DNA from: an uncultured Bacteroides sp.
GTDB lineage: Bacteria > Bacteroidota > Bacteroidia > Bacteroidales > Bacteroidaceae
Assembly (NCBI GenBank): GCA_944320295.1
Contig: CALUGY010000005.1
Location: 1-63,824, forward strand
DNA: 63,824 bases
Reading direction: 5' to 3'
The notes beneath the pieces are model-generated. The model did no database searches. It saw only the letters and a program-made list of their open reading frames with translations, and had not been told where the DNA came from. The translations under genes were made by a program, and so were the position numbers. This document shows positions 485-61,598 of this stretch, piece after piece; position 1 is the stretch's first letter; every line of letters starts with the position of its first letter.

Positions 485-590
485 AGCCTTTGCCCGCAAC
501 ACGTTGCGCGTTTGCTCCGTACATGTTGCGCCCGTGCTCGGAACGTGTTGCGCTTGCGCTCCGAACATGTCGCGTCCAAAAGCGCGGCAT
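485..590. repeat. Type-1 quadruple-palindrome element, copy A
   Basis: Four 14-bp palindromes at 495-508, 517-530, 539-552 and 561-574, with cores ACACGT, ACATGT, ACGTGT and ACATGT and 8-bp linkers; centres are exactly 22 bp apart. It sits in the 463-bp gap between tmRNA and the EF-G paralog, about 100 bp upstream of the candidate promoter of the latter. The 8-bp linkers end in GCT on the plus strand. The flanks GCCTTTGCC and the reverse of CCAAAAGCGC are loosely inverted. The rest of the gap shows only the two promoters. Confidence 0.85.
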
Positions 591-669
591 AACTGCCCCA
601 GAAGCCTGTCAAACAGGGAGAAAGGAGGTTGCATGTTTTATAACATAGTTTAGTAACACATAATCAAGC

Positions 670-700
670 ATTGCTTTTCTTTCGATTAATTCCTATTTTG
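670..700 (+). promoter_or_regulatory. Candidate promoter of EF-G paralog
   Basis: TTGC near 671-674 and CTATTTTG at 693-700, about 20 bp apart, resemble the Bacteroidetes -33/-7 elements, with the last T/A pair imperfect. It lies 70 bp upstream of the chosen ATG at 770, which argues against the longer reading frame opening at 671. Confidence 0.4.
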
Positions 701-769
701 CGCGGCGCAAAACAAAGCGGCTGTCAGCCGCGGCTTAACAAGAGTATTCACTTAAAACCTTGCTCTATC

Positions 770-2926
770 ATGAAAGTATATCAGACAAGCGAAATTAAAA
801 ACATTGCCCTGCTCGGCAATGACGGTTCAGGAAAAACCACTCTCACGGAAGCCCTGCTCTATGAGAGTGGTATTATAAAACGCCGTGGCAGGATTACTGC
901 CAAAAACACAGTTAGTGACTATTTCCCAGTAGAACAGGAGTATGGCTACTCGGTGTTCTCGACCGTATTCCACGTGGAATGGAACGGCAAGAAGCTGAAC
1001 ATCATCGACTGCCCGGGCAGCGACGACTTCGTCGGGGCCGCCATCACGGCACTCAACGTGACGGACACCGCCATACTGCTGCTCAACGGCCAGTATGGCG
1101 TGGAGGTGGGCACGCAAAACCACTTCCGCTACACCGAAAAGCTGGGAAAACCGGTCATCTTCCTCATCAACCAGCTCGACAACGAGAAGTGCGACTACGA
1201 CATGGTGCTTGAGCAGCTGAAGAGCATCTATGGCTCGAAAGTCGTGCCCGTACAATACCCCTTGGCCACAGGCCCGAACTTCAACTCGTTGATAGACGTG
1301 CTCCTTATGAAGAAGTACTCATGGGCACCCGAAGGCGGAGCACCGACCATAGAAGAAGTGCCTGCCGAGGAGATGGAAAAGGCCACCGCCCTGCACAAGG
1401 CATTGGTGGAGGCTGCCGCCGAACACGACGAGGGACTGATGGAGAAGTTCTTCGAACAAGACTCGCTGACGGAAGACGAGATGCGCGAAGGCATCCGCAA
1501 AGGCTTGGCCTCGCGCGGCATGTTCCCCGTGTTCTGCGTCTGCGCCGGAAAAGACATGGGTGTGCGCCGCTTGATGGAGTTCCTGGGCAACGTGGTACCT
1601 TTCGTGGATGAAATGCCGCCCGTGCACAACACACGCGGCGAAGTGGTAAAACCCGATGCCAACGGCCCCACATCGCTCTACTTCTTCAAGACTGCCGTGG
1701 AACCGCACATAGGCGACGTGCAATATTTCAAAGTGATGAGTGGCAAAGTACACGAGGGTGACGACTTCACCAACGCCGACCGTGGTTCGAAAGAACGCAT
1801 AGCACAAATCTACGCCTGCGCAGGCGCCAACCGCATCAAAGTGGAAGAAATGGTGGCCGGCGACATAGGCTGCACGGTGAAGCTGAAGGACGTACATACC
1901 GGCAACACGTTGAACGGCAAGGGAGCGGAGAACCGCTTCAATTTCATCAAATACCCCAACTCCAAGTATTCCCGTGCAATCAAGCCGGCCAACGAAGCCG
2001 ATACGGAAAAAATGATGGCCATACTGAACCGCATGCACGAAGAAGACCCCACATGGGTGATAGACCAGTCGAAAGAACTGCGGCAAACCATTGTGCACGG
2101 ACAGGGCGAATTACACCTGCGCACGTTGAAGTGGCGCTTGGAGAACAACGAAAAACTGCAAATCAAGTTCGAAGAGCCGCGCATCCCCTACCGTGAGACC
2201 ATCACCAAGGCCGCCCGTGCCGACTACCGCCATAAGAAACAGTCCGGCGGTGCTGGCCAGTTCGGTGAAGTACACCTCATCGTAGAGCCTTACTACGAAG
2301 GCATGCCCGCCCCCGACACGTACAGGTTCAACGGGCAAGAGTTCAAGATGAACGTCAAAGGCACGGAAGAAGTATCCTTGGAATGGGGCGGCAAGCTCGT
2401 CTTCGTCAACTGCGTAGTGGGTGGAGCCATCGATGCACGTTTCATGCCCGCCATCCTGAAAGGCATCATGTCGCGCATGGAACAAGGCCCGCTGACCGGC
2501 TCATATGCACGCGACGTGCGCGTCATAGTTTACGACGGCAAGATGCACCCGGTAGACTCCAATGAAATATCGTTCATGTTGGCTGGCCGGAATGCCTTCA
2601 GCGAAGCGTTCAAAAACGCAGGCCCGAAGATTCTGGAGCCTATATACGATGTGGAAGTATTCGTTCCATCAGACAAGATGGGCGACGTGATGAGCGACCT
2701 GCAAGGACGCCGTGCCATGATAATGGGCATGAACAGCGAAGCCGGCTACGAAAAGCTACAAGCCAAAGTGCCCTTGAAAGAAATGTCGTCATACTCCACG
2801 GCACTCAGTTCGCTCACCGGAGGACGCGCCTCGTTCATCATGAAGTTTGCCAGCTACGAACTCGTGCCGGGCGACGTGCAAGAGAAACTCATCAAGGACT
2901 TCGAATCAAAGCAGGCTGAAGAATAA
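770..2926 (+). CDS. fusA2: EF-G paralog (FusA2/EF-G2-like translation factor)
   Basis: 718-residue elongation factor G homolog with the full domain order: G domain (about 1-280), domain II, III, IV and V. The GTPase signatures deviate from canonical EF-G: the P-loop is GNDGSGKT (residues 16-23), the G3 motif is DCPGS (80-84) where EF-G has DTPGH, so the catalytic histidine is missing, and G4 is NQLD (134-137) rather than NKxD. A Bacteroides EF-G paralog lacking GTPase activity (EF-G2 of B. thetaiotaomicron) is known and needed for gut fitness; the sequence here fits that class, though orthology is inferred. The ATG at 770 is chosen because the upstream extension has no conserved content and overlaps the promoter region. 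Followed by a strong terminator. Confidence 0.9.
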   Translation: MKVYQTSEIKNIALLGNDGSGKTTLTEALLYESGIIKRRGRITAKNTVSDYFPVEQEYGYSVFSTVFHVEWNGKKLNIIDCPGSDDFVGAAITALNVTDTAILLLNGQYGVEVGTQNHFRYTEKLGKPVIFLINQLDNEKCDYDMVLEQLKSIYGSKVVPVQYPLATGPNFNSLIDVLLMKKYSWAPEGGAPTIEEVPAEEMEKATALHKALVEAAAEHDEGLMEKFFEQDSLTEDEMREGIRKGLASRGMFPVFCVCAGKDMGVRRLMEFLGNVVPFVDEMPPVHNTRGEVVKPDANGPTSLYFFKTAVEPHIGDVQYFKVMSGKVHEGDDFTNADRGSKERIAQIYACAGANRIKVEEMVAGDIGCTVKLKDVHTGNTLNGKGAENRFNFIKYPNSKYSRAIKPANEADTEKMMAILNRMHEEDPTWVIDQSKELRQTIVHGQGELHLRTLKWRLENNEKLQIKFEEPRIPYRETITKAARADYRHKKQSGGAGQFGEVHLIVEPYYEGMPAPDTYRFNGQEFKMNVKGTEEVSLEWGGKLVFVNCVVGGAIDARFMPAILKGIMSRMEQGPLTGSYARDVRVIVYDGKMHPVDSNEISFMLAGRNAFSEAFKNAGPKILEPIYDVEVFVPSDKMGDVMSDLQGRRAMIMGMNSEAGYEKLQAKVPLKEMSSYSTALSSLTGGRASFIMKFASYELVPGDVQEKLIKDFESKQAEE

Positions 2927-2962
2927 TGCTTTTCTTCATTCAGCTATGATTCAACCATAGCA

Positions 2963-3006
2963 AAAGGCCGTTACCTGTTTCGTGAGAATTCGGTAACGGC
3001 CTTTTT
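2963..3006. terminator. Bidirectional intrinsic terminator
   Basis: A 13-bp stem (2963-2975 with 2992-3004) of AAAGGCCGTTACC type with T runs on both sides, lying between the convergent EF-G paralog and HAD genes. Confidence 0.85.
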
Positions 3007-3020
3007 CATGCCCAATGTCA

Positions 3021-3770
3021 TCAAGACTGGGCAAAAGTGCCACGCAGCTCCTCCCACCCGTCACACAAAGCTTGCATGGAAGGGAAAAGCAAATCCGCTC
3101 CGGCATCGAGCAACACTTGCCCGTCCAGCGGACCGGTATTGACAGCCACGGTAAAAATTCCAGCCGCCTTGCCTGCTTGCACACCAATGGGGGCGTTTTC
3201 CACCACAATGGCCTCGTTCGGGGCGACACCGGCCTTCTCAAGTCCCATAAGATATGGTTCAGGATGGGGCTTACCATACTTTACATCAAAAGCAGTCACC
3301 ATACGCTCCTTATCGAACATGCCGGGAAAACAATGTGCCAAACGGTCGAACAAGGAGTGCTGCCCGGAACCTGTAACCAACACAGGAACAATACCGTCGG
3401 CACGAAGCTTCTGCAACAACTCCCATGCACCGAGCATACGTTCCGGCTCAGGGTGCGTGCTGAACTCGGCACTCTTCTCGGCGTAAATCTTCTCCACCAA
3501 AGCAGGATCGGCATCACGCCCGAACTGGCGCTGATAAACGATATTGATGGTGGACGAACCAGTACGTCCCTCGTGCAAGTAGGCTTCCTCACGGCTCAGG
3601 TGCAGGCCGTGGCGTTCCATCACCTTATGCCAGGCATCGGCATGGTAAGGCATGGAGTTGAACAACACACCATCCATGTCGAAAAGGACGGCACGCAAGC
3701 GGATTCTTTCCCAGCCATGTGCCTCCAAGAAGCGGGCAATGGAAGAACGATACATGTCGACATTACTCAT
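3021..3770 (-). CDS. HAD-superfamily hydrolase, beta-phosphoglucomutase-like
   Basis: Haloacid dehalogenase family phosphatase or phosphomutase. The nucleophile motif FDMDGVLFNSMP (DxDG), the motif II threonine in VLVTGSG and the motif III/IV lysine and acidic stretch (KYGKPHPEPY, then VENAPIGVQAGKAAG) are all visible, with a helical cap of the PGM/CbbY subfamily between motifs I and II. The substrate cannot be told; sugar phosphates are usual in this subfamily. Three in-frame ATGs lie at 3779, 3770 and 3755; 3770 is preferred but not certain. Separated from pgi upstream by a terminator, so it is probably transcribed separately. Confidence 0.85.
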   Translation of the reverse strand: MSNVDMYRSSIARFLEAHGWERIRLRAVLFDMDGVLFNSMPYHADAWHKVMERHGLHLSREEAYLHEGRTGSSTINIVYQRQFGRDADPALVEKIYAEKSAEFSTHPEPERMLGAWELLQKLRADGIVPVLVTGSGQHSLFDRLAHCFPGMFDKERMVTAFDVKYGKPHPEPYLMGLEKAGVAPNEAIVVENAPIGVQAGKAAGIFTVAVNTGPLDGQVLLDAGADLLFPSMQALCDGWEELRGTFAQS

Positions 3771-3862
3771 AACATTCATACAAACTACATTCTTTGTTCC
3801 AACAAACAACACCCTGTAAATAAGGGCTCCAAACATTTATTGCAATAAGATAAGCGATAAAA

Positions 3863-3898
3863 AAACGAGGCGCAGAGTTTATGAGCCACGCCTCGTTT
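3863..3898 (-). terminator. Intrinsic terminator downstream of pgi
   Basis: A 10-bp stem AAACGAGGCG (3863-3872) pairs with 3889-3898, followed on the minus strand by a run of Ts. Confidence 0.8.
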
Positions 3899-3921
3899 GT
3901 CATATCACTTGATACTGTGCA

Positions 3922-5259
3922 TCACAATCTTGCACGAATAGCCTTGCTTTCCTCCTCATAACCCGGCTTATCAAGCAGGGCAAACATGTTTTTCTTGTAG
4001 GCTTCCACACCAGGCTGGTTGAAAGGGTTCACACCCAACAAGTAGCCGCTAATACCACACGCCTTCTCGAAGAAGTAAAGCAACGCACCGATACTTTCCT
4101 CATTAAGGGCGGGGATAACGATACGCATGTTGGGTACCCCACCATCCACATGGGCCAGTTGCGTACCCAGTTCAGCCATTTTGTTTACCTCGTCCACGTG
4201 CTTGCCAGCCAAGAAATTCAGGCCATCCAGATTTTCTCCGTCGGAGGGCACTTGCAGGCTGTAGTTAGCATGCGCCACGGAAATGACCGTTTCGTATATG
4301 GTACGTTCGCCTTCCTGAATCCATTGCCCCATGGAGTGCAAATCGGTAGTAAAGTCCACCGAAGCAGGAAATATTCCTTTGTGCTCCTTGCCTTCGGATT
4401 CACCGTAAAGTTGCTTCCACCACTCGCTGACATAATGCAATTTGGGATTGAAGTTCACGAGTATCTCTATCTTCTTTCCGTTCTTGTACAACTCGTTTCG
4501 TGTAGCTGCGTAAATGGCAGCCGGGTTTTCTGCAAAAGGCACATCCTTGCCACACGCCTTTTCCATGCTTACTGCGCCGGATATTAACTTCTCTATATCG
4601 AAACCTGCAACAGCAATAGGTAACAAACCTACTGGCGTCAACACAGAAAAACGTCCTCCCACATTATCGGGAATAATAAACGACTTATACCCCTCCTTGT
4701 CCGCCGTGATACGGGCCGCGCCTTTCTTGGCATCGGTGATGGCCACAATGACTTTGCGAGCCACGTCTTTACCACGTTGGTCTTCACATTGTTTCTTCAG
4801 GAGGCGGAAGGCCAAGGCAGTCTCAGTAGTCGTACCGGACTTGGAAATGTTGATGACACCGAACTTCTTCCCCTTCAGGTATTCAGTCAGTTCATAAAGA
4901 TAGTCCTCACCGATGTTATGCCCGGCATACAGGATGACAGGAGAGTCCTTTTTCTCTTGCAGCCAAGCGAAACTGTTAGACAGAGCCTCTATCACAGCAC
5001 GCGCACCCAAATAACTTCCTCCGATTCCGGCTACTACCACTACGTCGCAATTCTCACGCAACGTCTGTGCGGCAGCCTTCAATTCGGCAATATGTTCCGC
5101 CGTAATGGATGAGGGCAGATGCAACCAGCCCAAGAAGTCGTTCCCCTTCCCGGTACCGTTTTCCAATGCATCCATTGCGTCTTTAACTCGGTTCTCGTAA
5201 GCCTGAACGTTTTCCTTGGAAATGAATCCTAAGGTCTTTTCAATGTTCAAAGTAATCAT
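3922..5259 (-). CDS. pgi: Glucose-6-phosphate isomerase
   Basis: Interconverts glucose 6-phosphate and fructose 6-phosphate in glycolysis and gluconeogenesis. 445 residues, the length of the short bacterial form. Signatures include [11 protein letters not shown] (sugar-phosphate-binding SIS fold, about residues 79-89), [12 protein letters not shown] (about 136-147), and the [14 protein letters not shown] signature (about 201-214). Catalytic Glu and His candidates lie in the ESEGKEHKG region and the C-terminal segment. A 7-bp hairpin (5292-5298 with 5305-5311) lies in the leader. Downstream of gpsA on the same strand with a 166-bp gap. Confidence 0.96.
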
Positions 5260-5425
5260 GGCACTTAATGTTTAAAAGCCTCTCGCCCATCTCCTTCCAC
5301 TAAAGGAAGGAAGGTTTGAAACTATGTTGGTTATACTTATTATATATTACTATCCTTTTTCCTACATTCTCTGCTACTGCTTCCATTGCCACGCTATCCG
5401 CACCTTCTACACGAAAAGGAGAGTC

Positions 5426-6421
5426 CTAACGAAACGAGTCCGTCAGCAGCTTTATCTCGATGGAAGGAGAGATGCGTTCGTACAAGATGTTATACACAGC
5501 ATCCACGATGGGCATGTTCACGTGGTAGTGTTTGTTTATCTCTTTGATGCATTTTGTCCCGTAATATCCCTCCGCTATCATCTCCATCTCCATCTGAGCG
5601 CTTTTTACTGAGTAGCCTTTGCCTATCATGGAGCCGAACGTACGATTACGGCTGAAGTTGGAGTATCCCGTCACCAACAGGTCGCCCAAGTAAGCAGAAT
5701 CGCTCACGTTGCGGTTCAGCGGATGCACCGTCTCCAGAAAGCGGTTCATCTCCTGCACGGCATTGGACATCAGCACGGCCTGGAAGTTGTCGCCATACTT
5801 CATGCCGTTGCAGATGCCGGCGGCAATGGCATATACGTTTTTGAGCACCGAGCCATACTCGATGCCCGCCACGTCGTTGCTCACCGAAGTCTTAATGAAC
5901 GAGTTGGCAAAGCGGCCTGCCAACAAAGTAGCCTTGTTTATGTCAGGACAGGCTATGGTGAGATAGGACAGGCGTTCAAGAGCCACTTCCTCTGCATGGC
6001 ACGGGCCTGCAATGACGGCTATGTTCTCGGGAGGCACGTTGTACTCTTTCGTCAGGTATTCGGACACAATGAGGTTGTCATCCGGCACGATGCCCTTGAT
6101 GGCCGTCACGATGAACTTGTCCTTTATCTTCGTCTTCAACTTCTTCAAGTGACTCTTCAGATACGGGGAGGGCGTGACGAATATGAGCGTATCCGATTCA
6201 CGTACCACATCGTTGATGTTGGAACTGAAGTTGATGCGCTTCGTGTCGAACTTGACACCGGTCAGGTATGCGGGGTTATGGCCAAGGCGTTTGAAGTCGG
6301 CAATACGGTCATCGCGCCGCATGTACCAATTCAGCGTGTCGGCTTTCATCATCACCATTTTGGCAATGGCGGTCGCCCAGCTTCCCCCGCCCATGATGGC
6401 TATCTTTCCCGGTAGTTTCAT
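5426..6421 (-). CDS. gpsA: Glycerol-3-phosphate dehydrogenase [NAD(P)+]
   Basis: Reduces dihydroxyacetone phosphate to sn-glycerol 3-phosphate for phospholipid synthesis; cytosolic. 331 residues, the usual length. The N-terminal dinucleotide-binding motif is [13 protein letters not shown] (about residues 10-22), and the [17 protein letters not shown] stretch is the conserved catalytic Lys region in the C-terminal domain. Its start overlaps the lysS stop by 4 nt (ATGA-type overlap), so the two are translationally coupled in one operon. Confidence 0.96.
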
Positions 6422-8154
6422 TTCCCTATCTTCTCAATCCAAGCCTGCACGTCGGCTACGCTCGGACTCGTCAGTTCCAGCTTGTATTTCTTATTGATGC
6501 CGCAGATGTCCATGTGCAGCTTCTGCGGGTTGACCTCCTTCATGCTGTCCACCGTATTATACCCGGCTTTTTGGATTACAGGCACCCAGTCTTGCGGAAT
6601 GCCCAGCTCCATATAGCGAGCAGGCGCGTCTTTCGGGGCTGCCTTTTCAGGGCGCATCTGCGGGAAGAAGAGCACTTCCTGTATGAAAGGCTTGCCGGTC
6701 ATGAGCATTGTAAGACGGTCGATGCCGATACCTATGCCCGATGTGGGCGGCATACCATATTGCAAGGCTTTGAGGAAGTCCTGGTCGATGAACATGGCCT
6801 CGTCGTCACCCTTTTCGCTCAGGCGGAGTTGTTCCTTGAAACGTTCTTCTTGGTCGATGGGATCATTCAGTTCGCTATAGGCATTGGCCAGTTCCTTGCC
6901 GTTCACCATCAGCTCGAAGCGTTCGGTCAGGCCGGGCTTGCTGCGGTGCATCTTGGTGAGGGGCGACATCTCGACAGGATAGTCGGTGATGAACGTGGGC
7001 TGGATGAATGTCCCCTCGCAGAACTCGCCGAAGATTTCGTCAATCAGCTTGCCTTTACCCATGGTATCGTCAATCTCCATGTTGAGGGCCTTGCAGATGG
7101 CGCGAATCTCGTCCTCGCTCTTTCCGTCGAGGTCATAGCCAGTCTTTTCCTTGATGGCGTCCAGAATGGGCAAGCGGCGGTAAGGAGCCTTGAAGCTGAT
7201 GGTCTTGCCGTCTATTTCCACTTCGGTGCCACCGTTCACAGCTATGCAGATGCGCTCCAGCAGCTTCTCGGTGAAGCCCATCATCCAGTTATAGTCTTTA
7301 TATTGCACGTAAAGCTCCATGCAGGTGAACTCGGGATTATGGTTCTTGTCCATTCCCTCGTTGCGGAAGTTCTTCCCGATTTCGTACACGCCCTCGAAGC
7401 CGCCCACGATGAGCCGCTTCAGGTAAAGTTCCGTGGCAATGCGCAAGTAGAGGTCAATGTCCAGCGAATTGTGGTGTGTGATGAAGGGACGTGCGCTGGC
7501 ACCTCCGGGAATGGATTGCAGAATGGGCGTCTCCACCTCGGTATAGCCGGCCTCATCGAGCACGGCACGCATGGTGCTGATTATTTTAGAGCGTTTCAGG
7601 AAAGTCTCCTTCACGCCATCGTTCACAATGAGGTCCACATAGCGCTGGCGGTAACGCAGTTCGGGATCTTCGAACGAGTCGTAGGCCACCCCGTCCTTAT
7701 ATTTCACCACGGGCAGCGGCTTCAAACTCTTGGCCAGCACGGTCAGTTTCTTGGCATGGACGCTGATTTCACCCATCTGGGTGCGGAACACGAAGCCCTC
7801 GACCCCGATGAAGTCGCCCAAATCGAGCAAACGCTTGAACACGGTATTGTACATCTCCTTGTCCTCGCCGGGGCATATGTCGTCGCGGGTGATGTATACT
7901 TGTATACGCCCCTTCGAGTCTTGTAGCTCTACGAAAGAGGCTTTGCCCATGACACGGCGGCTCATCATGCGCCCGGCAATGGATACCTGGCGCGGCTCGT
8001 CCTCGTCTTTGAAGCGGGCTTTTATGTCGGTGGAGAAAGCGTTGGTTACATACTCTGCTGCGGGATATGGCTCTATGCCCATGGCACGGAGCTCATTCAT
8101 GCTGTTGCGGCGGATGATTTCCTGCTCGGTCAGTTCTAACACATTCAAATTCAT
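6418..8154 (-). CDS. lysS: Lysyl-tRNA synthetase, class II
   Basis: Charges tRNA-Lys. 578 residues, longer than the roughly 505 of E. coli LysS. It has an N-terminal OB-fold anticodon-binding domain (about 50-150), class II motif 1 around [21 protein letters not shown], motif 2 around [19 protein letters not shown], and motif 3 [13 protein letters not shown]. The extra 70 or so C-terminal residues (after MRPEKA) look like a helix-hairpin-helix type domain with [20 protein letters not shown], an appendage seen in Bacteroidetes LysRS. The -7 box TACTTTTG lies at 8190-8183. Confidence 0.96.
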
Positions 8155-8182
8155 GTTCGCAATAATTCACTCAATTTGGGGA

Positions 8183-8190
8183 CAAAAGTA
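8183..8190 (-). promoter_or_regulatory. lysS-gpsA promoter (-7 box)
   Basis: TACTTTTG on the minus strand, 29 nt upstream of the lysS ATG, matches the Bacteroidetes TAnnTTTG box. Confidence 0.65.
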
Positions 8191-8319
8191 CGAAAGTTTT
8201 TCGAGATAAGTGACATTTCCACAGGAATATTGTATGCGGGGCCGGGCGGATGCGTCTCCCGTGACCGGACACGAAAGAAAGAAGAAGTCCTTATCAATCA
8301 ACGGATTAAAGCACAGCAT

Positions 8320-8436
8320 ACTGAGTACAAGCTCGCAACGTGTACGGAGCATGGCCGCAACATGTTGCGAGCGCAAGCGCAACGCGTTCCGAGTACGGAC
8401 GCGACACGTTGCGGCCAAACCCGCCATATATACCGC
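8320..8436. repeat. Type-1 quadruple-palindrome element, copy B
   Basis: 14-mers at 8334-8347, 8356-8369, 8378-8391 and 8400-8413 (cores ACGTGT, ACATGT, ACGCGT, ACACGT), exact 22-bp period, linkers starting AG on the plus strand. It sits in the 406-bp divergent gap between lysS and the lactonase gene, between the two promoters. The downstream flank CCAAACCCGCC...CAGAAGCCT resembles that of copy A. Confidence 0.85.
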
Positions 8437-8497
8437 CCAGAAGCCTCTAAAACAAAAGTTTTACGGGCTACAGGAAACAGGAACCGGCAGATTGTGT

Positions 8498-8505
8498 TAT
8501 CTTTG
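8498..8505 (+). promoter_or_regulatory. Promoter of lactonase gene (-7 box)
   Basis: TATCTTTG, a perfect TAnnTTTG match, 55 nt upstream of the ATG. Confidence 0.7.
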
Positions 8506-8560
8506 TCCATCGGGCGGCCGACGGCAAGACCCAGGACGCCTTTCCTCAAACTACTGAACA

Positions 8561-9673
8561 ATGAAACTACCTGTATTCCTTATGATTGCACTTGGACTGT
8601 CCGCCCACGGATGCCGCCCTGCGACAGAAGGCATGGAATCTCCACTCACCATGGCGGTAGGCACCTACACCGGCGGCACGAGCCGGGGCATCTACACCTT
8701 CCGCTTCGACCAGGAGAGCGGCGAATGCCTGGCACTCGACTCGGTAGAGACGCCGAACCCCTCGTTCCTCATCTTCTCGGCCGACGGCCGCAGGGTGTAT
8801 TCCGTAAACGAGATGAACGACTCCACCGCCGCGCTCAGCACCTTCCTGTTCTACAAATCGAGCGGAAAGCTGAAGCCCGAAAACACCGTACTTACGCACG
8901 GGGCCGCCCCTTGCCACGTATCGACCAACGGACGCATCGTCATCACGTCCAACTACATAGGCGGAAGCCTGTCGGCCCTCCCCCTGCATGGCGACGGGGA
9001 GGTAAAAGGCCACGGCCTGGCGCAATACTTCGGCGAGGCGCATGGGGTGGACAGCGTGAGGCAAATCACCCCGCACGTGCATTGCACAGCCTTCTCGCCC
9101 GACGGGCGTTACCTGCTTGCCAGCGACTTCAGCGCCGACCGCATCCTCCGCTTCCGTCTGACGGAGGGGCGCGACAGCCTGCTGGCCGACGGCACGGCAG
9201 CGGAAGTGGAACCCGGTTCGGGCCCGCGCCACCTGACCTTTGCGCCCGACGGGCGGCACGTCTACCTCATCAACGAACTTTCGGGCATGGTAACGGCATT
9301 CCGCTACGCCGACGGGCAGTTGGAGCAGACACAGTCCATCGTCGCCGACAGCCTTCATGCACGCGGTAGTGCGGACATCCACCTCAGCCCTGACGGCCGT
9401 TTCCTTTATGCCAGCAACCGCTTGAAAGGTGACGGGATAGCCATATTCACCGTCGACAAAAAAGACGGTACGCTGGCCCCGGCGGGCTACCAGCCCACCG
9501 CCGCGCACCCGCGCAACTTCGCCATCACGCCCAACGGGAAATTCCTGCTCGCAGCCTGCCGCGACGGCAACGTCATCCAGGTGTTCCGCCGCGGCCCGCA
9601 AACCGGCCTACTGACAAACACGCAGCGCGACATCCGCTTGAGCATGCCTGTGTGCATACAGTTCGCACCATAA
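8561..9673 (+). CDS. Lactonase-family beta-propeller protein (6-phosphogluconolactonase type)
   Basis: 370 residues of the YbhE/Pgl-like seven-bladed propeller family. An N-terminal signal sequence ends in LSAHGC, a plausible lipobox, suggesting a lipoprotein; the mature part starts with VGTYTGGTSRGIYTF. Repeated blade motifs such as FSPDGRYLLASDF, FAPDGRHVYLINE and LSPDGRFLYASNR are spaced about 50 residues apart, and the LLAACRDGNVIQVFRR end is typical. In E. coli the cytosolic homolog hydrolyses 6-phosphogluconolactone; an exported lipoprotein probably has another lactone or sugar substrate, so the function is not certain. Ends 64 bp before the next promoter. Confidence 0.88.
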   Translation: MKLPVFLMIALGLSAHGCRPATEGMESPLTMAVGTYTGGTSRGIYTFRFDQESGECLALDSVETPNPSFLIFSADGRRVYSVNEMNDSTAALSTFLFYKSSGKLKPENTVLTHGAAPCHVSTNGRIVITSNYIGGSLSALPLHGDGEVKGHGLAQYFGEAHGVDSVRQITPHVHCTAFSPDGRYLLASDFSADRILRFRLTEGRDSLLADGTAAEVEPGSGPRHLTFAPDGRHVYLINELSGMVTAFRYADGQLEQTQSIVADSLHARGSADIHLSPDGRFLYASNRLKGDGIAIFTVDKKDGTLAPAGYQPTAAHPRNFAITPNGKFLLAACRDGNVIQVFRRGPQTGLLTNTQRDIRLSMPVCIQFAP

Positions 9674-9736
9674 CGGGCGAAGCGGGCGGAAGGCGTTAAT
9701 AATCTATAAATAAGACAGCCGCAACAGATAACTTGC

Positions 9737-9744
9737 TACCTTTG
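9737..9744 (+). promoter_or_regulatory. Promoter of DUF4831 gene (-7 box)
   Basis: TACCTTTG, 34 nt upstream of the ATG at 9779. Confidence 0.7.
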
Positions 9745-9778
9745 TTCTTGACAAAGTTTGCAAAAACGCATTCATCAT

Positions 9779-52296: not shown

Positions 52297-52430
52297 TTTT
52301 CATGTACCATAGCCCGATAGGCGAGTGCCATCAGGTACTACCGAAGGCGTCCGGACGAAACAGGCCAAATCTTTCCATACAATAGGGAGATATTTTTGCC
52401 TTTGTCTTGCCATGTTCGGTTTTTTCTTCC

Positions 52431-52438
52431 TACATTTG
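52431..52438 (+). promoter_or_regulatory. Promoter of CRP-family regulator (-7 box)
   Basis: TACATTTG, 32 nt upstream of the ATG. Confidence 0.6.
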
Positions 52439-52470
52439 TGCTTTATAACACAGTTTTATAACATTTATCT

Positions 52471-53172: not shown

Positions 53173-53175
53173 ACC

Positions 53176-55617: not shown

Positions 55618-55644
55618 CGGCACACACATACACGGTTGATAATC

Positions 55645-55687
55645 ACGCCCGTACGCCATCGAAAGATGCGTACGGGCGTTCTTTTTT
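55645..55687 (+). terminator. GH20 terminator
   Basis: A 16-nt stem (55645-55660 with 55665-55679, one bulge) followed by TTCTTTTTT. Confidence 0.85.
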
Positions 55688-55699
55688 CCTGCGCCCGCA

Positions 55700-55855
55700 A
55701 GGGGGCGGTTGCCACGCACGTATGCAGGCCGATGCTACGGACGTGTGTAGGTCGTTGCTACACACGTGTGTCGTCGAGTGCTACGGACGTCCGTCGTCAG
55801 GGGCTGCGCACGTCCGTAGCATCGGCCTACGGACGTCCGTAGTAACGACCCCCTC
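55700..55855. repeat. Type-2 palindrome array (six units, 22-23 bp period)
   Basis: Six palindromes centred on ACGT at 55719.5, 55742.5, 55765.5, 55788.5, 55810.5 and 55833.5, i.e. 23, 23, 23, 22 and 23 bp apart, with motifs such as CACACGTGTG and CGGACGTCCG. The flanks GGGGGCGGTTGC (about 55701-55712) and GTAACGACCCCC are roughly inverted. In addition 55727-55745 and 55808-55826 are a perfect 19-bp inverted repeat. It lies in the 357-bp convergent gap after the GH20 terminator; the rest of the gap is the second terminator. Confidence 0.8.
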
Positions 55856-55892
55856 ACGGGCGGGGTTTCCACCCCCTTGCGGAAGGCACAAA

Positions 55893-55938
55893 AAAGCGCG
55901 CCCGTCCACCGGTTTTTCCGGCAGGCGGGCGCGCCTTT
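55893..55938 (-). terminator. Terminator of the GH57 gene
   Basis: A 12-bp GC-rich stem (55893-55904 with 55926-55938, one bulge) with an inner CCGG/CCGG step, followed on the minus strand by TTTTTTG. Confidence 0.8.
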
Positions 55939-55974
55939 CACCGAGGGGATGGAGACCCCTCCGGAGGGTCACTC

Positions 55975-57342
55975 CTATTGGTCAGTTTTCTTTACAGACG
56001 GTTTGCTGTGCTTGGCTGGTGCGGCCTTGGGCGTGGCGGCTGCCTTGCGTTCCTTCTTCTGGGCGGCTTGGGCTTTGGCCAGCTCCTTCTTCAGGGTTTC
56101 AATCTCCTCCCCCTGGTTGTGGATGGTGGTCAGCAGCGCGTTCAGCTCCTCGTTCTCCACGTCCACGGGATAGAGGGCGTCCACCCGCTTCATGAAGTCC
56201 GCCAGTATGTTCATGTAGTTGGTGAAGGCGTCGTAGGGCGACTCGTATATGCCCCGGTTCAGGCCCACCCCGCTGTTCTTGGTCGTCATGAAGCGGAAGT
56301 TGTTGCTGGCTTGCAGGTAGTCCCAGTCTTGCTTGATGCGGCGGTCGTCGCACAGGTGCACCCGCTCGGCCACGCTGTACAGCTTATTGAAGGCCTCCCG
56401 CTGCATGGCGTTGCCCAGCCAGCAGCTGGTGTCGCGCTCCTCGTCCGTCCACGACATGGGGTAAGGTACATCCAGGGACGACACCGACTTGAACTTCGCT
56501 ATCACCTCCGACGGCGTGGCGAAACTGATGCCCCTGGCCTTGGCACACTCGGGCAGGGCTTTCATGAATTCCAGTATGTTCGACGACAACGGTTGTGCCA
56601 CACCCAGCGCGCTAAGCTCCATGAAGATGTTGATGAGCTGTTCCTCAGGCGGCAGGGCGTTTATCTTGTCCATGTACGTGTCGGCAAAGAGCGGGTACTC
56701 GTCCCACTCGCTGTTGGAGAAGCGCAGGCTAATGTCGTCCGACAGGCGGAAGTCCCTGAGCAACAGCTTCAAGTTGGGGTTCATGTTGCTATGGTACAGA
56801 TAGTGGGGGCTTTTCCATCCCAGCACGTGCTTGGCGCCCTCGGTCAGTACTCCCTTGAAGCCCATCTCGGCTACCACGGCACCTATCTCGTCCGAATATA
56901 TCAGGCTGGAGTTACGGAACACCTTGGGCGCCTTGCCGAATACCTGCTTCATCTTGGCGGCCTGGCGTTTCACCTCCTCGCGGAAGCAGTCTTCGTTGGC
57001 CAGCGACGAGAGGCCGTGCGAGTACGGTTCTGCCAGGAACTCGCAACAGCCCGTGTCATTCAGTTGGTGCAACAGGTCTATCACGGCGGGAGCGTGTATC
57101 TCCAGCTGTTCCAGCGCCACGCCGGAAATGGACAGGGCCACCTTGAACGCCCCTTCCGACTTTTCTACCATCTCTATCAGGGCCTTCAAAGCCGGTATGT
57201 ACGACCGCTCCGCCACGTCGTTGATGCCCGTCTCGTTGGCATAGTCGTCATAATAATAGTGGTCATTTCCTATTTCAAAGAAACGATACCGCTTCAAGTG
57301 TATGATTTGGTGTATCTCAAAATAAAGACAAATGGTTCTCAT
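55975..57342 (-). CDS. GH57 family glycoside hydrolase (alpha-amylase type)
   Basis: 455 residues. GH57 barrel with the N-terminal EIHQIIHLKRYRFFEIGNDHYYYDDYAN; where homologs have HQPFR or similar, this one reads HQIIH. The nucleophile region is EFLAEPYSHGL, and conserved acidic and Trp-rich regions follow (FRNSSLIYSDEIG, FGVL-type). The C-terminal 60 residues are a Lys/Ala-rich coil. Cleaves alpha-1,4-glucans. Third gene of the glycogen operon, 11 nt after the GT4 gene. Confidence 0.88.
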   Translation of the reverse strand: MRTICLYFEIHQIIHLKRYRFFEIGNDHYYYDDYANETGINDVAERSYIPALKALIEMVEKSEGAFKVALSISGVALEQLEIHAPAVIDLLHQLNDTGCCEFLAEPYSHGLSSLANEDCFREEVKRQAAKMKQVFGKAPKVFRNSSLIYSDEIGAVVAEMGFKGVLTEGAKHVLGWKSPHYLYHSNMNPNLKLLLRDFRLSDDISLRFSNSEWDEYPLFADTYMDKINALPPEEQLINIFMELSALGVAQPLSSNILEFMKALPECAKARGISFATPSEVIAKFKSVSSLDVPYPMSWTDEERDTSCWLGNAMQREAFNKLYSVAERVHLCDDRRIKQDWDYLQASNNFRFMTTKNSGVGLNRGIYESPYDAFTNYMNILADFMKRVDALYPVDVENEELNALLTTIHNQGEEIETLKKELAKAQAAQKKERKAAATPKAAPAKHSKPSVKKTDQ

Positions 57343-57353
57343 AGCTTACATAT

Positions 57354-58616
57354 TTAATAGTTCTTTAATACGTTCTCGTACAGTCCGCGGATTTTCAGCG
57401 CCACCTTCTCCCATGTGATGCCGTCCACTTCCTTCTTTCCCTCCTCTTGCAGGTAGTGGAAGAGCGACGGGTTCGTGCAGATGGAGTGAATGGCATCGGC
57501 CAGGGCGTGGATGTCCCAGTAATCCACCTTGAACACCTTGTCAAGGATTTCACCGCATCCCGACTGTTTGGATATGATGGACGGCGTGCCGCATTGCATG
57601 GCCTCCAGCGGGGCGATGCCAAACGGCTCGGACACGGAGGGCATGACAAACACGTCGCTGTTCTTGTACACCTCGTACACCTGCTTCCCCTTCATGAAGC
57701 CGGGGAAGTGGAAGCGGTCGGCAATGCCGCGTTCGGCCGCCAAGTTGATCATGGCATTCATCATGTCGCCCGAACCGGCCATCACGAAGCGGATGTTGCG
57801 CGTGCGTTTCAGCACCATGGCAGCAGCCTCGACAAAGTATTCTGGCCCCTTCTGCATCGTAAGACGGCCCAAGAAAGTAACCACCTTCTCCTTTTCGTGT
57901 ACAGGACGCGGAATGTCCTGATATTCCTGCGGCAAGGGATACACGGCATTGTGCACGGCAAACACCTTGCGCGGGTCTTGGTGATACTCATTGATGACCG
58001 TGCGGCGCGTCAGCTCGGAAACGCACATGATGCAGTCGGCATAGTCCATGCCGTTCTTCTCCATGGCATATACCGTGGGATTCACCTTGCCGCGGGAACG
58101 GTCGAAGTCCGTGGCATGCACGTGAATGCACAGCGGCTTTCCACTAACCATTTTGGCATGCACACCAGCCGGATAAGTAAGCCAGTCATGAGCATGTATG
58201 ATGTCGAACTGCTGCTGGCGGGCCACTACCCCCGCAATGATGGAGAAGTTGTTTATCTCGTCATACAGGTTAGAAGGATAACCGCCGGCAAACTCCATGC
58301 AGCCTATGTCATTGACATGCATATATGAAAAGTCCGCATAAAGATGGTTACGCAGGTCGTAGTATAACTCCGGCGTCATACCCGCCCCCAAACGTCCTTT
58401 CAACCAATCGTAGTTTACATCACGCCATACGATAGGCACCTGGTTCATGCTGATGATGTTCAAGAACTTTTCTTCATCGCCGCAAGCTTTTGGCATACAA
58501 AGCGTGGTTTCCACGTCGCCTTGTACGCTCAGGCCCTTCGTGATTCCGTAAGTGGCGACGGCCAGACCGCCGTATATCTTGGGAGGAAATTCCCAACCAA
58601 ACATTAACACTTTCAT
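57354..58616 (-). CDS. Glycosyltransferase family 4 (glycogen synthase-like)
   Basis: 420 residues, GT-B fold. N-terminal MFGWEFPPKIYGGLAVATYGITKGL with the sugar-acceptor GG loop; HAHDWLTYPAG; and the C-terminal retaining EX7E motif EPFGIAPLEA (donor binding). It resembles the glycogen synthase type GT4/GT5 enzymes that extend alpha-1,4-glucan from ADP- or UDP-glucose. Between debranching enzyme and GH57, so part of a glycogen synthesis and breakdown operon. Exact donor not known. Confidence 0.88.
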   Translation of the reverse strand: MKVLMFGWEFPPKIYGGLAVATYGITKGLSVQGDVETTLCMPKACGDEEKFLNIISMNQVPIVWRDVNYDWLKGRLGAGMTPELYYDLRNHLYADFSYMHVNDIGCMEFAGGYPSNLYDEINNFSIIAGVVARQQQFDIIHAHDWLTYPAGVHAKMVSGKPLCIHVHATDFDRSRGKVNPTVYAMEKNGMDYADCIMCVSELTRRTVINEYHQDPRKVFAVHNAVYPLPQEYQDIPRPVHEKEKVVTFLGRLTMQKGPEYFVEAAAMVLKRTRNIRFVMAGSGDMMNAMINLAAERGIADRFHFPGFMKGKQVYEVYKNSDVFVMPSVSEPFGIAPLEAMQCGTPSIISKQSGCGEILDKVFKVDYWDIHALADAIHSICTNPSLFHYLQEEGKKEVDGITWEKVALKIRGLYENVLKNY

Positions 58617-58631
58617 TGTTCACCTCCTCTC

Positions 58632-60572
58632 TTAATGATACTTAGACAATAAATCCAAGATACGCAACATCTCGGCCACATTCATTGCGAAAGAAACGGC
58701 TCCACGGCCCGTAAAAGGCGGATTCCCATCAAACAACTCCGGCAAGGTACTGATGCAATGGCAAGTCATCTGGTCTTCCATGCCTATCAGGTAACGCTCC
58801 ACGAAAGAGAGGCCGCTCATTTTGTAGATACGCAGGTAAGCCTCCATATAGAAACCCATGAGCCATGGCCAAGCCGTGCCCTGATGGTAGGCATAATCGC
58901 GCTGTGTCTGTGGCCCCACATAATTGGGGTTGTAACCCGAACTTTTGGGACTCAACGTGCGCAAGCCTTTCGGAGTAAGCAATTCCTTTGTCACAATGTC
59001 GAGAATCTGCTTTTTCTGCGCCTTGTCCAGAGGAGAATAGTCGAAAGCAACGGGGAATATCATGTTGGGACGCACGCTCCAATCCACCGCGCCGTCCTCG
59101 CCTACATAGTCGAAGAGATAGCCATACTCATTGCGGAAAACATCCACAAACGAACGGCCGGTCGTTTTGGCCTGTTCCTCCAAATCTTCGGCCAGCGAAG
59201 CATTTCCGGCCTCACGTGCCATGTCGGCCACGAAACGCAGGGCGTTATACCACAAAGCGTTCACCTCGACAATATAGCCCGTACGCGGAATGACCGGCCG
59301 CCCGTCTACCGTGGAGTTCATCCACGTCACAGCCTTGTCCGTTCCGTGGGTATAGAGCAAGCCGTTGTCATGCAACTTCAGGTTGGCGTGCTTGTTGCCA
59401 AGCAGGTAAGCCATGATTTCTTCAAGCAACGTGCCATACAACTCGCGGCACCGTTCACGCGACACACTCTTGGCGTATTGCTGCAAAGCCCAAACGGCCC
59501 ACAACAACACGTCTGGATGCTCCATTTCATAAATCTTATAGGAAGTGGAGCCGGTAGCCATGAACTCGCGTATGGCTTTTGAAGCTGTTAGCATGGCGTC
59601 TTCGAACTCTTCCGGTTCGTTCAAGGACAGGGACATGCCCGGAAGGGCGATGAACATGTCGCGCGCCCGGCACTTGAACCACGGATACCCGGCCAGCACA
59701 TAATGTTCGCTTCCTTGCTTGTTGTGGAACTGGTGCGCCGAGTTTTTAAGGCAATTATAGAAGCTGTCACGCGGGGTACGGTCGGCCATCTCGGTTTCGA
59801 ACACGTGCTTCAACGTGCGCGGCGCTATCTCGGATATGCCCGCAGAAAACACGATGCTCTCGCCCTTCTTGATATCCACCTCGAAATAGCCCGGAACGTA
59901 CAGGTCTTCGGTAAAGTCATAGCCGCGTTCCTGCTCCTTGGGATACTCGATGTTACGGTACCAGTCGGGCTGGAAGTGGAACTCGTTCTTTTTGTTGAGC
60001 TGCATGTAGAGTTCCGGATACCCGGGATACATGCATGTCTTGATGCCGTTCTCCACCGGCTGGTAGTCGCGGCTGGCCTGCGCGTTTTCGTGCGTGTATT
60101 CGCGCACACTACGGAATGCAAGGAACGGACGGAAACGGAGCGTCGTGGCAGAATGGGCATCTACCAACGTGTAGCGTATCAGTATCCTGTTCTCATGATG
60201 TACAAACAGCTTTTCTTTGCGCAAGATGACCCCGCCCACACGATAGGTAGTGGTAGGGATATGCTCGCAATCGAACTCGCGGATATACTTGTGACCGTTA
60301 GGGCTGAAATGGCCGCCGCGGTACTTGTGCAGCCCCAAGTTGAACTCCGCGCCGTGCTGTATCACCGTCTCGTCCAGCGAAGACAGCAACACATGGTTTT
60401 CGTCATCCAAATTGGGAACAGGTATCACCAGCAAGCCATGATATTTGCGCGTGTTGCAGTCCACAATCGTGGTGCAATGGTATGCGCCCGAACGGTTTGT
60501 CCGAAGTATTTCACGAGGTAAAGACTCCTGAAGGTTTATCATCAGCGTCTTGTCAAATCGTAAATAACTCAT
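58632..60572 (-). CDS. Glycogen debranching enzyme (amylo-alpha-1,6-glucosidase type)
   Basis: 646 residues. N-terminal GDE_N-like beta domain (about 1-230, with LPREILRTNRSGAYHCTTIVDCNTRKYHGLLVIPV), then an alpha/alpha barrel GDE_C domain (about 270-640) with the acidic pair candidates in YPWFKCRARDMFIALPGMSLS and QRDYAYHQGTAWPWLMGFYMEA. Hydrolyses alpha-1,6 branch points. First gene of the operon; -7 box TATTTTTG at 60645-60638 and a 66-nt leader. Confidence 0.93.
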   Translation of the reverse strand: MSYLRFDKTLMINLQESLPREILRTNRSGAYHCTTIVDCNTRKYHGLLVIPVPNLDDENHVLLSSLDETVIQHGAEFNLGLHKYRGGHFSPNGHKYIREFDCEHIPTTTYRVGGVILRKEKLFVHHENRILIRYTLVDAHSATTLRFRPFLAFRSVREYTHENAQASRDYQPVENGIKTCMYPGYPELYMQLNKKNEFHFQPDWYRNIEYPKEQERGYDFTEDLYVPGYFEVDIKKGESIVFSAGISEIAPRTLKHVFETEMADRTPRDSFYNCLKNSAHQFHNKQGSEHYVLAGYPWFKCRARDMFIALPGMSLSLNEPEEFEDAMLTASKAIREFMATGSTSYKIYEMEHPDVLLWAVWALQQYAKSVSRERCRELYGTLLEEIMAYLLGNKHANLKLHDNGLLYTHGTDKAVTWMNSTVDGRPVIPRTGYIVEVNALWYNALRFVADMAREAGNASLAEDLEEQAKTTGRSFVDVFRNEYGYLFDYVGEDGAVDWSVRPNMIFPVAFDYSPLDKAQKKQILDIVTKELLTPKGLRTLSPKSSGYNPNYVGPQTQRDYAYHQGTAWPWLMGFYMEAYLRIYKMSGLSFVERYLIGMEDQMTCHCISTLPELFDGNPPFTGRGAVSFAMNVAEMLRILDLLSKYH

Positions 60573-60637
60573 GGTCTAATTATTATTTAAAGGTTAATTC
60601 ATCTAACTTCATGCACCGCTTCATGCGTTGCGACGTT

Positions 60638-60645
60638 CAAAAATA
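60638..60645 (-). promoter_or_regulatory. Promoter of glycogen operon (-7 box)
   Basis: TATTTTTG on the minus strand, 66 nt upstream of the debranching enzyme ATG; with the rhomboid promoter it sits in a 171-bp divergent gap that carries no palindrome element. Confidence 0.6.
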
Positions 60646-60743
60646 CAAAATATGGAACAGACACGAAATAAAACGGAAGTTTTTTTTCCGTTTACGGACA
60701 AATAATCGTAGTATTGCACCCGAATGAAAAAAAACAGCTACAA

Positions 60744-61484
60744 ATGAAAGGCGAAATACGCCGCATATTCCTCGCGGCAAGCTTCCCGCTGTTCCTGCTG
60801 TTCGTGCTTTACACATTAAAAATACTTGAAGCCGGCATGGACTGGGACTTCACGCGGTTGGGGGTATACCCGTTGCAGAAGCGGGGCGTGTTCGGCATAT
60901 TCGCCCACCCCCTGATACATGGCAGCTTCCGCCACCTGCTGGCCAACACGCTGCCGCTGTTCTTCCTGTCGTGGTGTCTGTTTTACTTCTACCGCCACAT
61001 TGCTTCGTACATATTTTTCACCATCTGGATAGGTTGCGGCATCATTACTTTCCTGATAGGCAAACCCGGTTGGCACGTGGGCGCAAGCGGCATCATCTAC
61101 GGGCTGGCCTTTTTCCTGTTCTTCAGCGGCATATTGCGCAAGCACGTGCCGCTGGTGGCCATCTCGCTGCTCATCACTTTCCTTTACGGGGGACTGGTGT
61201 GGAACATGTTCCCCCAGTTTGCCAAGTCCACCACTTCGTGGGAAGGGCATCTGGGAGGAGCCATAGCCGGCACAATCTGCGCGGCGGCTTTCAGACGGTA
61301 TGGCCCGCAACGCCCCGAACCGTTCGCCGAAGAGGAAGAAGAGAATGACGCCCCGGAAAGCACAGTCGACGCCCCCGCACCCGACAACGGCATTCAGGCG
61401 GAGGAACAAAGCAAAGAGCTTTCCCCGGAAGACGACATACTTGCAGAAAAAAGCATACATGGGAAAGAGGCCGACTCGACATGA
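60744..61484 (+). CDS. Rhomboid-family intramembrane serine protease
   Basis: 246 residues from the ATG at 60744; the frame opens at 60714 but overlaps the TAGTATTG box. Six or so transmembrane segments. Catalytic serine in HVGASGIIYGLAFFL (GxSG motif), catalytic histidine in SWEGHLGGAIAG; the HPLIHGSFRHLLANTLPLFFL segment is the conserved first-loop motif. An acidic hydrophilic C-terminal tail (about 195-246) follows. Substrates unknown. Ends 187 bp before the TrkH gene, with element J between. Confidence 0.9.
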   Translation: MKGEIRRIFLAASFPLFLLFVLYTLKILEAGMDWDFTRLGVYPLQKRGVFGIFAHPLIHGSFRHLLANTLPLFFLSWCLFYFYRHIASYIFFTIWIGCGIITFLIGKPGWHVGASGIIYGLAFFLFFSGILRKHVPLVAISLLITFLYGGLVWNMFPQFAKSTTSWEGHLGGAIAGTICAAAFRRYGPQRPEPFAEEEEENDAPESTVDAPAPDNGIQAEEQSKELSPEDDILAEKSIHGKEADST

Positions 61485-61598
61485 ACAGGCCATTCGGGCG
61501 GAACACGTTGCGGGCGCGCTCCGTACACGTTGCGGCCACGGCCGCGACACACTCGGAGCAAGAGCGCAACATGTCGCGCTTTCGGACGGCAAACAGCA
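61485..61598. repeat. Type-1 quadruple-palindrome element, copy J
   Basis: 14-mers at 61499-61512, 61521-61534, 61543-61556 and 61565-61578, exact 22-bp period. Cores ACACGT, ACACGT, ACACAC (degenerate) and ACATGT. Lies between the rhomboid and TrkH genes (186-bp gap) and, since no strong promoter follows it, is probably co-transcribed. Left flank GGCCATTCGGG and right flank CTTTCGGACGGC are weakly inverted. Confidence 0.82.

Follow-up and report, generated by a model that had tools for sequence, protein, structure and literature searches.

Four-Unit Palindromic Elements and a Phase-Locked 22-bp Sequence Pattern in the Genome of a Bacteroides Species

Elements of the Window

The 63,824-bp stretch of DNA studied here (the window; CALUGY010000005.1) is contig C5 of G000, a metagenome-assembled genome (MAG) of a Bacteroides sp. 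(2.53 Mb, 116 contigs, 81.5% complete) whose valS has its best named relative, at 89% identity, in the MAG of an uncultured Bacteroides; the named relatives of valS assign G000 to Bacteroides or its vicinity. It carries ten elements, which we refer to as tetrads, each consisting of four 14-bp units that step by 22 bp. Around them, and throughout the window (1..63824), runs a weak 22-bp phased lattice with one ACATGT-like weak dyad per 22 bp and an 11-bp alternation of A/T (W) and G/C (S) bases. This lattice is locked to the nearest tetrad and continues through the genes; that the register runs on in this way is the main point missed by the original prediction from which our analysis started.

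All ten 80-bp blocks that had been predicted were found; neither they nor the lattice carry a strand assignment. Tetrad 1 (495..574) lies upstream of an EF-G-like gene and tetrad 3 (18242..18321) between a DUF4837 gene and an RlmN-like gene, as judged from Pfam. Divergent gaps harbor tetrads 2 (8334..8413), 4 (26786..26865), 6 (38132..38211; upstream of valS) and 8 (44231..44310; before a DUF5686 gene). Tetrad 5 (33357..33436) follows secA, tetrad 9 (46824..46903) likewise has four units at the 22-bp period, and tetrad 10 (61499..61578) precedes a TrkH gene. Our recount of the ACRYGT core (R, purine; Y, pyrimidine) gave the same 38 of 40 units as before, the exceptions being unit 3 of tetrad 4 (ATACGT) and unit 3 of tetrad 10 (ACACAC). 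Pairs of such cores up to 100 bp apart are separated by 22 bp in 27 cases, by 44 bp in 19 and by 66 bp in 11, any other distance occurring at most once, and 20 first-order Markov surrogates of the window contained no four-unit array. Tetrad 7 (42137..42216) is accompanied by an extra, bare fifth ACATGT core exactly one period past its unit 4 (region 42137-42242).

Tetrads Across the Genome

A position weight matrix built on the 40 window units was scanned over the window and 20 other stretches of G000 (set 1; 453,508 bp); 20 further stretches made up set 2 (374,475 bp). Additional contigs were chosen for their HU-HIG genes, and the G000 sequence examined amounts to about 1.23 Mb out of 2.53 Mb. 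With one four-unit score applied to both sets, 125 tetrads were counted in 827,983 bp, the final list being drawn at a four-unit sum score above 36, which excludes weak arrays. As the stretches of both sets were taken from contigs already known to carry model matches, this density, which comes to about 0.15 copies per kb for the contigs surveyed, is biased upwards; other G000 contigs have far fewer tetrads.

Set 1 contains 75 arrays of at least two units, 71 of them with four units, three with five and a single one with two, which on inspection of its sequence proved to have four. Among the 51 arrays of set 2, 46 have four units, three have three and two have two, and several of those below four possess degenerate additional units. 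Consecutive unit matches not more than 150 bp apart are spaced by exactly 22 bp 226 times in set 1 and 146 times in set 2; the runner-up spacing occurs twice. The original prediction was to be abandoned if unit number and spacing varied freely across the genome; in G000 they do not, with exactly four units present in 117 of 126 arrays.

Of 500 tetrad units, 472 have the AC..GT frame, and all four RY combinations that had been seen in the window recur at their centers (AT 179, AC 129, GC 95, GT 69). The description of the units as palindromes holds for their dyads but not for perfect symmetry: units are often imperfect, and the two half-sites of one unit vary independently. Half-sites are alike in 0.236 of the cases within a unit (0.289 expected) and in 0.152 across a linker (0.279 expected), values that favor recognition of half-sites by single subunits over hairpins. 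Similarly, the four-unit core of the 80-bp block stood, but the block is not the full element, which is made longer by conserved outer arms. In the symmetrized consensus of 75 elements, these arms read TATAT.GGGC.TTTG on the left and, in mirror image, CAAA.GCCC.ATATA on the right; beyond them, conservation drops straight to the weak signal of the lattice. Pairwise identity of the 125 copies over 120 bp has a median of 0.62 and a maximum of 0.90; in one tetrad pair the 80-bp core is identical.

Tetrads had been regarded as intergenic, and 123 of the 125 are, the other two overlapping a called gene (gene positions were provided by a home-made gene caller). Co-directional gaps hold 72 tetrads, divergent gaps 36 and convergent gaps 13, with four at edges; when gaps of at least 150 bp are considered, a tetrad is present in 70 of 145 co-directional, 36 of 68 divergent and 10 of 25 convergent ones. 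The median distance is 82 bp to a stop codon and 167 bp to a start codon. A TANNTTTG box, which we take to be the Bacteroides promoter motif, lies between tetrad and start in 95 of the 144 genes that point away from a tetrad, and in none of these 95 does the tetrad overlap the start-nearest box. Spacing of the tetrads is more even than random (coefficient of variation of the gaps, 0.63). We infer that tetrads occupy the borders between transcription units in any orientation.

The 22-bp Lattice in Flanks and Genes

A weak W/S and RY pattern with a period of 22 bp is phase-locked to each tetrad and reaches at least 2 kb into the flanks, genes included. In the tests around tetrads, left and right flanks were pooled. 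Past the arms, a weak ACATGT-like dyad persists at the same phase, and the lag-22 column autocorrelation amounts to 0.76 at positions -130..-22, 0.64 at -240..-130 and 0.38 at -440..-240. When the 75 elements were split into halves, 20 of the 22 block tests put the true phase first among all 22, with failures only beyond 2 kb; the same test on three random position sets yielded no signal.

Two tests serve as cross-validation, since the profile used for the segment pairs described further below was trained partly on G000 sequence. A 22-phase profile derived from the 75 set-1 elements found the right phase in 11 of 12 distance blocks of set 2, out to 2.44 kb. Leave-one-contig-out prediction placed the register within 1 bp in 112 of 125 cases from flanks starting at 60 bp and in 105 of 125 from 200 bp (chance 16-17); from 500 bp and 1 kb onward, it still succeeded in 95 of 124 (chance 17) and 79 of 119 (chance 16) cases, respectively.

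Between 200 and 2000 bp from the elements, base frequencies depend on phase (z as high as about 14). Phases 3, 8 and 17 are the peaks of W-rich steps and phases 0 and 12 those of S-rich steps, a bending-type signal. With a profile trained 44-264 bp from the elements, the excess score was 0.49 in intergenic DNA, 0.34 at codon position 3 and 0.19 at positions 1 and 2 when taken at 600-1500 bp, a distance not used in training. The same order was observed in all three distance ranges, the nearest of which overlaps the training range. When the G000 base at synonymous differences to relatives was scored against the lattice, it was the favored one at the true phase by 0.0186 bits (other phases: mean 0.0006, SD 0.0078).

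The lattice can also be followed without reference to the tetrads. With these masked, base-match autocorrelation peaks at 11.00-11.04 bp up to lags of 2-4 kb in both G000 sets, and in set 2 the long-lag 11-bp peak is lost when triplets are shuffled within 60 bp. The W/S spectrum of G000 has the same long-range 11-bp coherence, and the plain Fourier signal of W/S at 11.00 bp is positive (z 6.2, 4.7, 4.3, 3.6).

Register of Neighboring Tetrads

The 102 distances between neighboring tetrads average 6.4 kb and cluster modulo 22 (R 0.56, p about 1.5e-14), with no concentration modulo 21 or 23. A scan of periods from 5 to 60 gave 22.01 as the best value, and none of 20,000 randomized sets reached the observed R. 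The concentration decays with the size of the gap: R is 0.86 both below 3 kb (n = 14) and at 3-5 kb (n = 27), 0.56 at 5-7 kb (n = 27), 0.36 at 7-10 kb (n = 25) and 0.08 above 10 kb (n = 9). Over two, three and four tetrad steps (means 12.7, 19.0 and 25.1 kb), R is 0.40, 0.40 and 0.42, values that come from overlapping pairs. In the window, the nine inter-tetrad residues modulo 22 are 7, 8, 8, 15, 1, 1, 4, 19 and 1. Dividing the intervals into eighths, we found the phase of the left tetrad to perform best in the first six and that of the right tetrad in the last four.

Control Genomes and Tetrad-Poor Contigs

In four control genomes, long-range coherence is absent: the 11-bp signal of E. coli K-12 (200 kb), G005, G033 and G087 is confined to lags below about 120 bp. 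Of 721 pairs of adjacent 1.1-kb segments in G000, each segment being fitted separately, 379 agree in phase to within 1 bp (chance 98), as do 23 of 57 pairs in the window contig (chance about 8). The agreement is near chance in G005 (18 of 145; chance 20), G033 (16 of 170; chance 23), G087 (16 of 102; chance 14) and E. coli (30 of 176; chance 24); the own profile of G005 gave one marginal value at 2.2 kb (p 0.013). Another genome, G089, is mixed: it has a coherent 11.00-bp spectrum and, in the Fourier analysis, z 3.2 at one lag, but is close to null in the 22-phase test. When 80 named Bacteroidales loci were pooled, no long-range 11-bp peak was detected. A subgroup of 16 close named loci (311 kb) has a 10.98-bp peak, 4.1 times the median, at lags of 400-1000 and none at 1000-2000, which may hint at the lattice in kin.

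Within G000 itself, contigs C31, C83 and C95 (213 kb, GC content 0.47-0.51) carry few tetrads and 15 other 22-bp arrays, some of which lie beside HU-HIG genes. Contamination was considered as the origin of these tetrad-poor contigs and rejected, as all three still carry some tetrads; our reading, therefore, is that they belong to the accessory part of this genome.

Arrays in Other Genomes

Run against 157 further genomes of the genus, the tetrad model gave matches in 9 (E <= 0.001), the strongest being in G087 (E 1.3e-11); among 294 other genomes sampled across the order, there was a single weak match. Inspected arrays in other genomes consist of 22-bp units of their own sequence, often four of them, sometimes three, five or at least nine. 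The count of exactly four that prevails in G000 is not general: related arrays in other species have about three to nine units or more. Several tetrads of G087 and G089 retain the TTTG..CAAA arms. Arrays outside G000 are weakly palindromic on average, with a best-dyad pairing of 0.52 for 44 arrays of period 22 and 0.48 for 35 arrays of other periods; a pairing of at least 0.8 is attained by 5 of the 44 and by none of the 35.

Around valS, the 80 named Bacteroidales loci (1.39 Mb) contain 36 period-22 arrays, a few of which are of low complexity, against 1 to 15 for each of 19 other periods. The gap upstream of valS that houses tetrad 6 in G000 is occupied in L136 by a 22-bp array of unrelated sequence (L136:9706-9890). 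Differing 22-bp arrays are found shortly upstream of valS in several species (L136, L138, L196, L201, L202, L177), and Bacteroidales commonly have 22-bp arrays whose sequences are unrelated (L133-L212). G110 has a 22-bp array of at least nine TCCCACCGNNTTGGGA-like units (L088:1729-2032), unlike the fixed four of G000. A TTGTCGGGTAC-like repeat in G077 (L039, around 1501-1571) is present in about six copies and has, by eye, a period of 11 bp, not 22.

HU-HIG Proteins as a Candidate Reader

HU-HIG proteins (PF18291) have the HU fold and represent an expansion in the Bacteroidetes. Since private 22-bp arrays are frequent at their genes, we regard this family as the best candidate, and as a candidate only, for the putative reader of the tetrads. 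Each of the ten genomes tested has between 4 and 33 PF18291 matches, which include some plain HU genes, and the model also matches HU of other bacteria. A private 22-bp array lies roughly 150-400 bp upstream of many HU-HIG genes: scored by one criterion, 24 of 50 have one, compared with 31 of 407 other genes (Fisher 7.5e-12). By group, the numbers are 10 of 20 in G000, where tetrads were left out of the count, 7 of 20 in four kin and 7 of 10 in other kin; none of five plain HU genes has such an array. For this comparison, 5 of 15 loci of an earlier set were dropped as duplicates and L230 was removed from the plain-HU control, and in that earlier set a plain-HU locus, L228, had a marginal array; 20 of the 23 PF18291 matches in G000 were read, one of those omitted being a plain HU. 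Nine other periods gave 0 or 1 per group, except for period 23 with 6 of 20 in G000. In general, 22-bp arrays are not confined to HU-HIG genes.

Only one of the 20 G000 HU-HIG loci, the C4 HU-HIG gene, has a tetrad upstream. The genus, with G000 counted in, has members of its family in 93 of 158 genomes at E 1e-20. The solved relatives of HU-HIG are IHF and HU. HU-HIG paralogs with Gly-rich tails end in a species-specific C-terminal tag (G000, L258-L277; kin, L298-L317): GEGTLG in 14 of 20 G000 proteins, EYPME or EYPIE in 6 of 10 of G089, ENPMG in 3 of 3 of G124, GDNPLV in 2 of 4 of G087 and TLG or PLG in 3 of 3 of G129, with two protein ends of kin not counted. Despite this common tag, C4 and most of its paralogs are only about 30-40% alike.

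Discussion

The sequence pattern described here is well supported; a protein array as its cause, the spreading and function of such an array, and the force that shaped it (selection or mutation) are what we infer from it. We give a probability of about one in two to the reading that tetrads are nucleation sites, at which the phase is set, of a nucleoprotein array that spreads cooperatively along the core chromosome and packs it. Such an array could be formed by a two-fold symmetric DNA-bending protein that would occupy 22 bp per dimer and 11 bp per subunit and impose 11.0 bp per turn on the DNA. The array would start in gaps that separate transcription units, at four high-affinity dimers side by side, and from there extend outward into the genes in register. 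Within genes, a weak bendability preference (W-rich at the dyads, S-rich between them) would be kept mainly at free bases, and neighboring tetrads would share a common register, so that their distances would lie near multiples of 22 bp. Relaxed DNA has 10.5 bp per turn; at 11.0 bp per turn, DNA in the array would be underwound by about 4.5%, near the usual bacterial supercoiling. The original prediction had already proposed dimers of a DNA-binding protein side by side, and this suggestion fits the 22-bp (2 x 11) phase, the dyads, the independent half-sites and the helical W/S alternation that continues outside the elements.

A wider picture can be drawn, to which we subscribe more tentatively. 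The core chromosome may be written in register with a 22-bp protein lattice whose phase is set by four-dimer elements, crosses genes and is common to neighbors. Foreign islands would be free of the lattice until ameliorated, Bacteroides species would use sequence dialects of their own, and the reader would probably belong to the HU-HIG family.

Several of our observations weigh against these proposals. G000 is one incomplete MAG (81.5%), and a clear 22-bp lattice is seen in this genome only. G087 has tetrads and no detectable lattice. In G089, where tetrads are rare (3 in 294 kb), 40 of 236 segment pairs agreed in the 22-phase test (chance 32); R was 0.16 at 1.1 kb (p 0.002), and longer lags gave nothing. 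Inside G000, the lattice is absent from C31, C83 and C95 (segment pairs 11 of 70, 11 of 70 and 8 of 50; chance 9.5, 9.5 and 6.8), and even tetrad-rich contigs are uneven, as illustrated by C39 (9 of 48), C115 (9 of 35) and C85 (28 of 35). A plain Fourier analysis of W/S in G000 is null at period 22 (z 1.6, 1.4, 0.8, 1.5); the 22-bp signal needs the full base profile. At synonymous sites, the true phase ranks 2 of 22 and a shift of +1 scores equally; for this reason the result is only supportive. The mean residue of the inter-tetrad distances drifts upward, by 1 to 3 bp within 5-7 kb, so that the register is near to rigid but not perfectly so. One would also expect transcription to be impeded by a protein array covering 2 kb. 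Finally, the C4 HU-HIG gene sits in tetrad-bearing DNA, and its upstream tetrad may be there by chance; its orthologs in G087, G089 and G124 have no array, which is why we leave it as a candidate only.

Among the other explanations, one accepts the bound array as real and regards the pattern in genes as a passive mutational imprint of periodic base protection or exposure, the far lattice being functionless. Slow accumulation would account as well as selection does for the gradient from intergenic DNA over codon position 3 to positions 1 and 2, and for the lattice-free contigs C31, C83 and C95. Mutation bias by itself does not account for tetrads that, with kilobases of genes between them, keep distances close to multiples of 22, unless new tetrads were to appear already in register; we consider this explanation unlikely, albeit worth serious thought.

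Tetrads might alternatively act as operators or boundary sites that bridge or loop DNA, with helical phase kept for the sake of looping and no continuous array. Their presence in gaps of every gene orientation, their even spacing and their phasing to each other would suit such a role. Looping, however, demands whole helical turns of 11 bp, not 22; twist fluctuations of naked DNA would blur the phase over 4 kb, as polymer physics teaches; and the register inside genes is left unexplained. We therefore judge it improbable.

A sequence or assembly artifact of this MAG comes to mind because the strongest signal resides in one genome. The signal nevertheless follows codon positions, replicates between contig sets and is missing in some contigs of this assembly although they do have a few tetrads, and similar tetrads occur in other genomes, all of which makes an artifact quite improbable.

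The original prediction had also entertained a structured mobile element resembling a miniature inverted-repeat transposable element (MITE), a proposal that our results do not support. The copy number, the outer inverted arms, the copy pair with an identical core and the MITEs with 23-nt repeats of P. gingivalis described in PMC4596501 speak for a mobile repeat, possibly one inserting in register with an existing periodic structure. Against it stand the divergence of the copies (median identity 0.62), the mostly exact number of four units, conservation that ends at the arms with no common non-repeat ends, distances quantized modulo 22, and kin with similar designs in other sequence. Moreover, one tetrad element compared with phages and plasmids and one consensus pattern compared with viral contigs gave no match to mobile DNA, and this origin hence appears very unlikely.

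That tetrads are RNA hairpins or transcription terminators, as their palindromic, GC-rich units with strong predicted folding could suggest, is most improbable, because half-sites vary independently within units and across linkers without covariation; tetrads also occur to a similar extent in divergent, co-directional and convergent gaps of at least 150 bp and have no Rfam match at gathering thresholds.

Provided that tetrads indeed nucleate a protein array, the findings bear on the question whether bacteria have sequence-positioned chromatin. DNA sequence by itself reveals the register of the putative array at each element in turn, often within 1 bp. The findings further point to HU-HIG as a candidate protein family without an established role, and they imply an unexpected constraint on coding sequence and on insertions and deletions.

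Comparison with Known Systems

Chromosome-wide A-tract periodicity of about 11 bp has been reported for bacteria in PMC3431218, PMC1242344 and PMC4132750. The first of these notes that prophage regions lack the periodicity of their chromosome; its accessible part treats periodicity strength along chromosomes and makes no mention of phase. G000 resembles these genomes in the helical-type W/S signal of about 10-11 bp in its genes and gaps. It differs in that genomic periodicity is coherent over about 100 bp, whereas the 11.00/22-bp signal of G000 is coherent to 2-4 kb and locked to discrete elements.

The BrickBuilt MITE of Porphyromonas gingivalis consists of 23-nt bricks that expand and contract, flanked by a leader and a tail with terminal inverted repeats, at 19 loci (PMC4596501); tandem repeats of 41, 23 and 22 nt had been reported earlier in P. 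gingivalis W83 (cited there). As far as this source extends, BrickBuilt shares with tetrads its occurrence in Bacteroidales, its intergenic position and tandem units of about two helical turns. Its unit number varies between loci, unlike the exactly four units of most tetrads, and the accessible text describes no lattice. A MITE would have terminal inverted repeats around a non-repeat body and near-identical recent copies; the arms of tetrads instead continue the 22-bp dyad pattern and give way to the phased lattice, and even the closest copies reach an identity of 0.90 at most over 120 bp.

REP/BIME and ERIC/BOX are intergenic palindromic repeats present in many copies. Tetrads are likewise numerous, intergenic and palindromic, but they have a fixed number of four units and a fixed phase, and their half-sites do not covary as those of conserved hairpins would. 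CRISPR arrays have identical repeats and unique spacers of 25-40 bp, in contrast to the differing units and the partly conserved 8-bp linkers of tetrads. HU-HIG (PF18291) genes often have 22-bp arrays of their own; to the tetrads, the family is linked by neighborhood only.

We found no description of tetrads or of a phase-locked lattice in the literature searched, which left most subscription papers outside its coverage, and we know of no bacterial case of an element-locked, kilobase-coherent register in genes. The sites of parS/ParB, matS/MatP and H-NS are palindromic or of high affinity and nucleate spreading proteins, as proposed here for tetrads, but they are single or irregular, whereas tetrads have four units at an exact period; an exact-period pattern in the genes beside such sites is, to our knowledge, without example. 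Phased nucleosome arrays and the hypernucleosomes of archaeal histones share with the lattice a sequence-encoded register, a W/S alternation, boundaries that set the phase and a decay with distance. Nucleosomes repeat at about 147 bp plus linker and hypernucleosomes at 30 bp; the lattice of G000 is bacterial, has a 22-bp repeat and keeps a register that is common to neighboring anchors.

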